Of a stretch of DNA of 64,000 nt, positions 23,204 to 25,576 are shown in pieces. Positions within the stretch are counted from its first letter, which is position 1. Each line of letters opens with the position of its first letter. A model generated the notes under the pieces. That model ran no database searches. It was not told where the DNA came from and saw only the letters and a program-made list of their open reading frames with translations. Origin of the DNA: Catellatospora citrea (GTDB lineage: Bacteria; Actinomycetota; Actinomycetes; Mycobacteriales; Micromonosporaceae). The translations under genes were made by a program, and so were the position numbers. The stretch is taken from the NCBI RefSeq assembly GCF_003610235.1, contig NZ_RAPR01000001.1, positions 3,472,001-3,536,000 on the forward strand, written 5' to 3'.

Positions 23204-25048
23204 ATGAATCACCCCCGTTCTCGGGGCTGGGCAGGCAAGATGCGGCACCTGGCGCTACCGGCGCTGGCCGTGGCCGTCGTCGCGACGATCCCGTTGAGCA
23301 GCGGTTCGAACGCATCTTCGGCCCCGGCGTGGACACCCCTCTCGCCGGTGTCGGTCAACATGGCCGCGGCGGCTCCGGCCGGCCACGCGGCGTACGGCAA
23401 CCTGCTCGCGTTCAACGACTTCCACGGCGCGATCGACGCGCCGACCGGCAGCGGCGCGGCGGTGCTGGGCACCCCTGCGGGCGGTGTCGAATACCTGGCG
23501 CACTGGGTCAAGAAGCTGCGCGCCGAGGGCGAGGCGGCAGGCCAGGAGGTCGTCACCGTCGGCGCGGGCGACATGATCGGCGCGACCCCGCTGGTCAGCG
23601 CGGCGTTCCATGACGAGCCCACCATCGAGCTGCTCAGCGAGCTGGGCCTCGACGTCAGCTCGGTCGGCAACCACGAGTTCGACGAGGGCGTCACCGAGCT
23701 CCAGCGGATGCAGCACGGCGGCTGCCACCCGGTCGACGGCTGCTTCGCCGGCGACGGCTTCGCCGGCGCGGAGTTCCAGTACCTCGCCGCGAACGTCACC
23801 GACAAGCGCACCAAGCTGCCCATCCTGCCGCCGGTCGACGTGAAGATCATCGACGGCGTGCCGGTCGGCTTCATCGGCATGACGCTGGAGGGCACCCCGG
23901 GCATCGTGAACCCGGCCGGCATCACCAAGGTCGACTTCCGGGACGAGGTCGAGACCGCGAACCTGTGGAGCGGCCTGCTGCGGCTGGTCGGCATCAAGGC
24001 GCAGGTGCTGCTGCTGCACGAGGGCGGCCAGCAGGGCGCCACCGGCAACATCTCCACCTGTGACGGCTTCACCGGCGTGATCTCCCCGATCGTGGCCGGG
24101 CTGCGCGACGAGATCGGCGTCGTGGTCTCCGGCCACACGCACCGCTTCTACTCGTGCTCGCTGCCCAACAAGTCGGGCAAGCCGGTCGTGGTCACCAGCG
24201 CCGGCACCAACGGCCAGCTGGTCACCGACATCACGCTGAACATGGACCGGCGCAGCCGCACCTTCACCTCGATCGAGGCGCACAACGTCGTCGTCGAGAA
24301 CGGCGTACGCAACGCCGACGGCACCTGGCAGACCACCGCGCCCGGCGTGTTCGTGCGCAACCCCGCGCTGGTCGACCCGGCCGCCAAGACGATCGCGGAC
24401 AAGTACCGCACCGCCGTGGCGCCGCTGGCCAACCGGATCGTCGGCAGCGTCTCCGCCGACATCGTCCGCGACGTCGTGCCCAGCGGCGAGAGCCCGCTCG
24501 GCGACGTCATCGCCGACGCCCAGCTGGCCTGGACCGCCTCCGCCGGGGCACAGCTCGCGCTGATGAACCCGGGCGGCATCCGGGCCGCGATCACCTACGC
24601 GAACTCGCCCGGTGGCGAGGCGCCGGGCCAGGTGACCTACGGCGAGGCGTTCACCGTCCAGCCGTTCAACAACCTGGTCGTGACCGCCTCCCTGACCGGG
24701 GCGCAGCTCGACGCGGTGCTGGAGCAGCAGTTCGCCGGCCACGCCGGCCAGAACACCACCAAGATCCTTCAGATCTCGGCGGGCTTCACGTACTCGTACG
24801 ACAGCACCCTGCCGCTCGGCAGCCGGGTCTCCGACCTGAAGCTGAACGGCACGCCGATCGATCCGGCGGCCAGCTACAAGGTGACGACGAACGACTTCCT
24901 GGCCAACGGCGGCGACAACTTCACGGCGCTGACCGCGGGCACGGGCCGGGTCTACGCGCCTGGGTTCGACGTCGACGCGCTGGTGGCGCACCTGGCCACC
25001 GGCCCGATCACCCCGGGACCGGCCAACCGCATCACCAAGCTCGGCTGA
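23204..25048 (+). CDS. Secreted 5'-nucleotidase / 2',3'-cyclic phosphodiesterase family protein
   Basis: 614 aa exported metallophosphoesterase that releases phosphate and nucleosides from extracellular nucleotides. A basic N terminus and hydrophobic segment (LALPALAVAVVATIPL) form a signal peptide. The N-terminal calcineurin-like domain has the metal motifs NDFHG, GAGDMIGATP, GNHEFD and SGHTH. The C-terminal nucleotidase domain shows MNPGGIRAAITY, the FTVQPFNNLVV loop and NDFLANGGDNFT for base binding. The frame extends 58 codons upstream, but GGAGG before the ATG and the signal peptide fix the start here. No C-terminal anchor is seen. Confidence 0.9.
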   Translation: MNHPRSRGWAGKMRHLALPALAVAVVATIPLSSGSNASSAPAWTPLSPVSVNMAAAAPAGHAAYGNLLAFNDFHGAIDAPTGSGAAVLGTPAGGVEYLAHWVKKLRAEGEAAGQEVVTVGAGDMIGATPLVSAAFHDEPTIELLSELGLDVSSVGNHEFDEGVTELQRMQHGGCHPVDGCFAGDGFAGAEFQYLAANVTDKRTKLPILPPVDVKIIDGVPVGFIGMTLEGTPGIVNPAGITKVDFRDEVETANLWSGLLRLVGIKAQVLLLHEGGQQGATGNISTCDGFTGVISPIVAGLRDEIGVVVSGHTHRFYSCSLPNKSGKPVVVTSAGTNGQLVTDITLNMDRRSRTFTSIEAHNVVVENGVRNADGTWQTTAPGVFVRNPALVDPAAKTIADKYRTAVAPLANRIVGSVSADIVRDVVPSGESPLGDVIADAQLAWTASAGAQLALMNPGGIRAAITYANSPGGEAPGQVTYGEAFTVQPFNNLVVTASLTGAQLDAVLEQQFAGHAGQNTTKILQISAGFTYSYDSTLPLGSRVSDLKLNGTPIDPAASYKVTTNDFLANGGDNFTALTAGTGRVYAPGFDVDALVAHLATGPITPGPANRITKLG

Positions 25049-25077: not shown

Positions 25078-25194
25078 ATGATGGTCGACGTGCTTGCGCA
25101 GCGAGGTATTCATGGCATACTTGGCAACGTGATCAACCAGGCGTTCTACTTTACCTATGGCTCCGGGAACCCGGCAGTCGTAGGTCGCGCCTGA
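25078..25194 (+). CDS. Candidate aromatic leader peptide of the chorismate mutase attenuator
   Basis: A 38-codon ORF ends 14 bases before a strong hairpin and about 100 bases before chorismate mutase. Codons 23-25 are Phe-Tyr-Phe, then Thr-Tyr (TTC TAC TTT ACC TAT at 25144-25158), so four of five consecutive codons are aromatic in a GC-rich genome where TTT and TAT are rare. ATG at 25078, ATG at 25081 and an in-frame GTG at 25129 are all possible starts; only a weak AAGG lies upstream. Ribosome stalling on Phe/Tyr shortage would be the sensing step. From memory, an FYF leader controls aroF in Corynebacterium; I know of none described for chorismate mutase here. Confidence 0.6.
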   Translation: MMVDVLAQRGIHGILGNVINQAFYFTYGSGNPAVVGRA

Positions 25195-25208
25195 GCACAC
25201 AGACCTCA

Positions 25209-25243
25209 CGAAAGCCCCGGGCTCCCAGAGCCCGGGGCTTTCG
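25209..25243 (+). terminator. Attenuator terminator hairpin upstream of chorismate mutase
   Basis: 15-bp perfect stem (25209-25223 / 25229-25243) with a 5-base loop and then CCTTTGTCCC, placed between the leader ORF and the chorismate mutase start. The leader carries CCGGG and CCCGG segments (25163-25174) that could pair with the 5' arm, but I see no long antiterminator. Confidence 0.75.
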
Positions 25244-25291
25244 CCTTTGTCCCGGCCACTGGTGAGCGACAATCCCATCGAGGAGTCCCAC

Positions 25292-25576
25292 ATGAGCGCC
25301 ATCGCCCACGAGACCGGCACCACCGCGCCGGAGGCCGCCACCGAGATCAGCTCGATGCGCGAGCGCATCGACCAGATCGACGCCGCCCTCATCGCGCTGT
25401 GGAAGGAGCGTGCCGCGATCTCGCAGCAGGTCGGCAAGACCCGCGTCGCCTCCGGCGGCACCCGCCTGGTGCTCAGCCGCGAGCGGGAGATCATGGACCG
25501 CTTCCGCGCCGAACTCGGCCCCGACGGCACCCAGCTCGCCCTGCTCATCCTCCGCGCCGGCCGCGGCCCGCTGTAA
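25292..25576 (+). CDS. Chorismate mutase, AroQ class
   Basis: 94 aa monofunctional enzyme converting chorismate to prephenate, the branch to Phe and Tyr. The all-helical AroQ pattern is visible: SMRERIDQIDAALIALWKER with the N-terminal catalytic Arg, the Lys of QVGKTR (K49), and the Arg-Glu pair in LSREREIMDRF (R63, E64). No prephenate dehydratase or dehydrogenase domain is fused. I start at MSAIAHE because GAGGAG precedes it; the frame is open 15 codons upstream. The leader ORF plus terminator upstream imply attenuation control by aromatic amino acids. Confidence 0.9.
   Translation: MSAIAHETGTTAPEAATEISSMRERIDQIDAALIALWKERAAISQQVGKTRVASGGTRLVLSREREIMDRFRAELGPDGTQLALLILRAGRGPL

Follow-up and report, generated by a model that had tools for sequence, protein, structure and literature searches.

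Chorismate mutase is the enzyme that opens phenylalanine and tyrosine synthesis. In Escherichia coli, the pheL-pheA and trpL-trpE attenuators form 1:2, 2:3 and 3:4 pairings and possess an intrinsic terminator. Closer to the organism studied here, Neshat et al. in 2014 reportedly described the AroR leader of aroF in Corynebacterium glutamicum. This leader precedes a DAHP synthase gene and contains Phe-Tyr-Phe, and stalling of the ribosome on it is stated to raise transcription, with a response to Phe and not to Tyr, in the available part of the review PMC11802643; the accessible text of PMC4046766 gives AroR as a predicted leader. An FYF leader before aroF in this species had also been mentioned in an initial annotation of our locus. 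By description, and as far as these partial texts go, AroR-aroF is the nearest published actinobacterial case: it shares with our locus a Phe-Tyr-Phe leader peptide, an actinobacterial host and the aromatic pathway, whereas the gene there encodes DAHP synthase and here chorismate mutase, so that our leader does not lie before an aroF.

Other actinobacterial leaders are more distant in content. In Streptomyces lividans TK24, leaderless leader peptides stand ahead of amino-acid genes, and the available part of PMC8079986 gives 8 of them (Leu 2, Trp 2, Ala, Ile, Met, Thr), none being for Phe or Tyr; the likeness to our case lies in leader frames transcribed leaderless in an actinomycete. Actinobacterial attenuators were also predicted by comparison by Seliverstov et al. 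2005, who, in the accessible portion of PMC1262725, report phenylalanine/tyrosine operons without conserved upstream RNA structures in the genomes then studied. The Acholeplasma uORFC-13-1 motif upstream of aroF associates a short frame with a terminator, and attenuation has been proposed for it in the part of PMC8632094 available; phylum and gene are both different, and the likeness is one of description and not of sequence. Many premature transcripts are reported for S. clavuligerus in the accessible text of PMC8269248. No report of an attenuator of an actinobacterial chorismate mutase was present among the literature matches listed, in which subscription papers are poorly covered, and an earlier prediction or detection may exist. 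The mechanism type is already known; the interest lies in how widely it occurs within the class and in how the leader residues correspond to the downstream gene.

We analyzed a window of 64,000 nucleotides from Catellatospora citrea, whose positions are used throughout, all features being on its forward strand. The initial annotation had proposed a ribosome-mediated Phe/Tyr attenuator of chorismate mutase. Comparison between genomes supports this proposal through a conserved leader, conserved codons and terminator, covariation in the hairpin P1, complementarity in the pairing P3 and an association with the gene, and the element is very probably a ribosome-mediated transcription attenuator of aroQ, of the classical trp/phe type. 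The gene itself (25292..25576) encodes a monofunctional AroQ chorismate mutase of 94 aa, as announced: Pfam CM_2 and NCBIfam PRK07857 and TIGR01808 all exceed their cut-offs, and its best solved relative is Rv0948c. It lies in the pathway of the amino acids that would be sensed, and a likely Shine-Dalgarno sequence, GAGGAG, can be recognized by eye at 25280..25285.

The 38-codon frame 25078-25194, with Phe-Tyr-Phe-Thr-Tyr as codons 23-27, is present as claimed, and its start codon had rightly been flagged as doubtful. ATG 25078 is ruled out as a start: the -10 box comes only after it, and it shares the leader's reading frame in Catellatospora loci alone; outside this genus the conserved frame starts at the equivalent of GTG 25129. 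Delimited by comparison with relatives, the leader peptide frame (25129..25194) thus runs from GTG to TGA and encodes MINQAFYFTYGSGNPAVVGRA before its stop, with the regulatory codons UUC UAC UUU ACC UAU (Phe-Tyr-Phe-Thr-Tyr) at 25144..25158. GGCATACT is invariant (16/16 sequences) when the window is compared with 15 loci from six named genera, and it is followed after 6-7 nt by a GTG and then by a peptide of 21-22 residues up to the stop codon. The -10 element CATACT (25116..25121) is conserved across the loci compared, and in the window GTG 25129 stands 7 nt past it, a spacing from which we infer that the leader transcript is probably leaderless and starts at or near this codon. A possible but weak -35 element, TTGCGC (25094..25099), is found 16 nt before the -10.

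These features were also counted in 114 leaders, a set that omits 21 loci (L016, seven non-leaders and 13 duplicates of named loci) as well as L100, where no leader having an aromatic-Gly anchor was detected by the script. In 107/114 of them, the start codon is preceded by a -10-like hexamer (out of a set selected by eye) that ends 4-9 nt away. The best -35 match averages 3.13 of 6 in the 63 Micromonosporaceae leaders versus 2.16 in shuffles, which is weak, and by the same scoring neither of the small groups of f3f4 and DAHP-synthase leaders shows a -35 signal. The aromatic fraction reaches 0.205 in the leader frame versus 0.051 and 0.069 for the remaining frames, a contrast that is somewhat inflated since the script picked the leader frame partly on aromatic content, favouring Phe/Tyr-rich frames. 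The frame, predicted to be translated, carries codons for the end products: within a stretch of seven residues that has the anchor as its last position, the leaders preceding chorismate mutase (n = 102) contain Phe in 102 cases, Tyr in 102 and Trp in 3.

From the (Thr-)Tyr-Gly codons onwards, the RNA is predicted to fold into hairpin P1 (1:2; 25153..25185), with arms 25153-25166 and 25171-25185 and -20.8 kcal/mol, and into hairpin P2 round the stop codon (25182..25206), where AGGUC (25182-25186) pairs with GACCU (25202-25206). Between leader and gene sits an intrinsic-terminator-like hairpin (3:4; 25209..25243), predicted to terminate, in which 25209-25224 and 25228-25243 form a perfect 16-bp stem around the loop CCA (-33.5 kcal/mol); it has a short U run within its 3' arm and is devoid of a long U tail. 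Its position 14 nt past the end of the frame had been given correctly, whereas the stem of 15 bp claimed needs to be lengthened by one pair. An antiterminator, of which an obvious long form had been noted as lacking, can be proposed from the comparison: strand 2, GGGAACCCGG in the P1 loop (25165..25174), can pair with CCGGGCUCCC in the 5' arm of the terminator (25217-25226) over a small inner hairpin, forming P3. Computed pairing and the arm-swap test described below indicate that P3 and the terminator are mutually exclusive, although P3 is not favoured in the full-length fold. We also observed that 25138-25144 (CAGGCGU) can pair with 25187-25193 (GCGCCUG) in an outer stem linking the beginning of the frame to its end, and that a similar outer stem is formed by different sequences in the leaders of other families.

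We propose that transcription beginning at or near GTG 25129 would yield a leaderless leader frame. With ample charged Phe- and Tyr-tRNA, the ribosome would reach the stop codon and cover strand 2, so that the terminator would form and aroQ would stay untranscribed. If charged Phe- or Tyr-tRNA became short, the ribosome would stall on UUC-UAC-UUU-ACC-UAU and mask the 5' arm of P1; strand 2 could then pair with the nascent terminator arm, closed over P2, and the polymerase, once P3 had formed, would read through into aroQ. Either of Phe or Tyr might be the one that matters. In the absence of translation, P1 and the outer stem would form and then the terminator, so that the default state would be off. 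The 1:2, 2:3 and 3:4 pairings and the intrinsic terminator parallel those of pheL-pheA and trpL-trpE, and the end-product-rich leader of these two, described in the available part of PMC11802643, is shared as well. Our locus differs from the E. coli attenuators by a probably leaderless start, by two amino acids in one leader, by a monofunctional AroQ and by an antiterminator that uses the 1:2 loop and encloses a second hairpin.

How widely is this organization distributed? A covariance model, R1, built from the 16 sequences mentioned above, matches 298/300 genomes of the same family and 282/282 of the good-quality ones, the two genomes without a match having a completeness of 69% and 77%. This bears on the idea that the hairpin would be the ordinary 3' terminator of the nucleotidase-like gene upstream, accompanied by a chance frame. 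The frame of that gene does stop at 25048, about 160 nt ahead of the hairpin, but the interval contains a promoter-like box and the leader, both conserved in all these matching genomes and beyond, which leaves this explanation a negligible probability.

To return to the attenuator reading, class-wide matches among 394 genomes amount to 80 for R1 and 140 for a wider model, R2, bare terminators being included in both figures. Loci L017-L075 are followed by a chorismate mutase frame in 59/59 cases; of the next 60 (L076-L135), 41 precede chorismate mutase, 12 DAHP synthase, and 7 (L116, L126, L128, L130, L131, L133 and L135) were judged non-leaders, these locus sets L017-L135 partly overlapping the named loci. 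Among 20 R2 places fetched, 15 are leaders before chorismate mutase or DAHP synthase, one of which (L184) is locus L113 again, and five (L177, L178, L182, L183 and L187) were judged non-leaders. Examples of the peptides are MFGQRFYFYYGTGSPAAVGRA in Micromonosporaceae, MLTHPTFLFTYGNRPTGCHGRAA in f21/g70 (presumably Streptomyces), MVDATCRFFYGIRTPAPVIAC in f3 and MLNAQRRFFYGYRPAVPVV in f2/g45 (probably Mycobacterium), the last type being found at 8/8 places fetched. At these places (L168-L175), a short leader ending in FFYGYR..VPV plus one or two residues stands before chorismate mutase, with UAG as the stop codon and a different terminator; R2 is without a match in most f2 genomes among those listed. 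In the alignment upstream of chorismate mutase, by which the initial annotation had suggested its proposal be judged, the Phe/Tyr codons, the hairpin and the gene are kept together across several actinobacterial families, and compensating stem changes are found in P1. We propose that the Phe/Tyr branch point is controlled in this way in many actinobacteria. Two loci deviate in the leader itself: in L004 (Catellatospora vulcania, 2324-2457), FY is replaced by CS (QACSFTYG) with F-T-Y kept, and sensing may be weakened; in L100, a frameshift occurs right after FYF and the RNA hairpins are still recognisable.

Covariation in P1 was analyzed on 57 distinct segments of chorismate mutase leaders, which are related sequences. 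In the outer stem, 93.9% of cells are paired, compensatory changes occur at 3/7 outer pairs, and 42 cells are changed on both sides versus 12.2 in shuffles; the pair count on 31 hand-picked segments of the 57 gave the same outcome as on all. The covariation score is 0.330 versus 0.221 for shuffled segments (0/500 reach 0.330) and at most 0.107 for slid versions of the stem, a control that is lenient because the stem was derived from the same sequences. The seventh pair is unpaired in 18/56 cells. As for P2, its four predicted pairs never vary in the 16-sequence alignment, so that covariation evidence is absent there.

P3 is predicted in 113/114 leaders, where, in RNA cut at the proximal terminator arm and folded only beyond the footprint of the stalled ribosome, the first 15 nt form at least 5 pairs with that arm and enclose an inner hairpin; L115, the sole exception, has an inserted hairpin. 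The partners of the window's leader type, GGGAACCCGG and CCGGGCUCCC, are replaced elsewhere by GGACUCC/GGAGUCC (f3), GGACCCG/CGGGUCC (f19) and CGGCCC/GGGCCG (Streptomyces-like). In those f3 leaders for which folds were computed, an A that is bulged out of the terminator stem is paired in P3. On the other hand, when 19 leaders were folded at full length, the terminator persisted in 19/19 despite a stalled ribosome and preference was not given to P3, which would thus have to win kinetically, during transcription, like in classical attenuators.

Exchanging arms between families (at most 6 arms sampled per foreign family), we found the own terminator arm to be better than the mean foreign arm in 94/101 distinct leaders. 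In a family-by-family matrix with at most 8 members per family, of which f34, f3f4 and f38 hold only 2, 3 and 1, the diagonal is best in 6/6 rows. The share of foreign arms that perform equally well is 10% or less in 31/55 Micromonosporaceae, 29/29 Streptomyces-like, 2/2 f34, 3/3 f3f4, 6/11 DAHP-synthase and 1/1 f38 leaders. A control by synonymous recoding gave P<=0.05 in 41/55, 4/29, 2/2, 2/3, 8/11 and 0/1 leaders of the same groups, respectively. Both controls are uneven between families.

Such strong RNA folding and conserved hairpins would also be expected from a switch independent of translation, that is a riboswitch or a protein-bound leader holding a frame by chance. However, no Rfam family, leaders, T-box and riboswitches included, scores above cut-off in the whole window, aromatic enrichment is confined to one frame (with the above caveat on frame selection), and the start codon is conserved together with its spacing to the -10 box; we consider such a switch extremely unlikely. 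The leader family is unrecognised by any model of the Rfam copy searched. The best Rfam score at 25208-25244, 30.4 bits for RF01791 (F6 TB sRNA) versus a cut-off of 46, covers the terminator only and probably reflects nothing more than hairpin likeness.

The peptide could also act by itself, either as an arrest peptide whose tail stalls the ribosome or as a functional small protein, Phe/Tyr supply not being sensed. The peptide, tail included, is indeed well conserved within Micromonosporaceae, but the tail varies between families and is frameshifted in the Streptomyces-like loci L057 and L114, where the aromatic codons are kept and the RNA arms are similar. In 48 Micromonosporaceae leaders, third codon positions of codons 12-21 are about as conserved as the first and second (0.900, 0.908 and 0.888 for positions one to three), which also argues against a function of the tail as peptide. 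Codons 7-11 of the same leaders give 0.921, 0.756 and 0.793; the first base is the highest, a pattern to be anticipated where Phe (UUY) can stand in for Tyr (UAY) and vice versa. Interchange of this kind is seen (FYFYY, YYFYY, FFYY) and, like the change of the aromatic set with the downstream gene, speaks against an arrest peptide. An action of the peptide itself is therefore very unlikely in our opinion.

The attenuator reading, if true, implies that the codon content of leaders predicts the amino acids sensed by each gene. Counted over the same seven residues, f19 leaders before DAHP synthase (n = 12) contain Phe in 11, Tyr in 11 and Trp in 11; in L132, where the anchor was set one step too early by the script, the whole peptide holds all three. 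The difference in Trp from chorismate mutase leaders gives a Fisher P of 7e-12, relatedness being ignored. Five further DAHP synthase leaders (L179, L180, L181 and L185 from f19, L186 from f31) have Trp in four cases, which brings the count to 15/17 in the two families. The f19 enzyme of L117 was scored as DAHP synthase by Pfam and NCBIfam, the 11 other f19 enzymes were assigned from the similarity of their N-terminal sequences and the five later ones by phmmer. The leaders of L117-L124, L127, L129, L132, L134, L179-L181, L185 and L186 resemble those of chorismate mutase but have, in most cases, Trp added (FWFWYG, FWRFYG).

The window's own genome contains a second attenuator-like leader (L137, G000:C1 ~5613.0-5613.2 kb), MVRMYWRFTLALGGAGGSMR followed by a stop codon, upstream of an AroFGH-type DAHP synthase. 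It comprises Tyr, Trp and Phe, and an inverted repeat of 17 bp accompanies it, as does a hairpin resembling a terminator. Counting the own genome, the family provided 30 loci of this enzyme, and in 19 of them the gene is preceded by a leader containing Tyr, Trp and Phe; L142 and L143 have, by eye, Tyr and Phe without Trp, and L144 is ambiguous. No leader was found before the enzyme in L160-L167, a group that includes three loci left unplaced by the script. Before the type II DAHP synthase of the own genome (L136), there is no convincing leader, one aromatic-containing frame lying 273 nt before the match start. A tentative hypothesis, to which we give slightly less than an even chance, is that the leaders found across much of the class derive from a single ancestral module of attenuation, its sensor codons being retuned to the gene, Phe/Tyr before chorismate mutase and Phe/Trp/Tyr before DAHP synthase, so that both Micromonosporaceae enzymes would be attenuated and would read different aromatic sets. 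The RNA likeness between leader groups may instead result from convergence.

Finally, Phe is encoded by UUU in 135/210 cases in leaders versus 2/86 in six window genes. This preference may contribute to sensitivity, or its role may be limited to preventing the stretch from pairing. The corresponding figures are 1/46 in the genes behind Micromonosporaceae leaders and 9/24 behind Streptomyces-like leaders, in frames untrimmed at the start codon.
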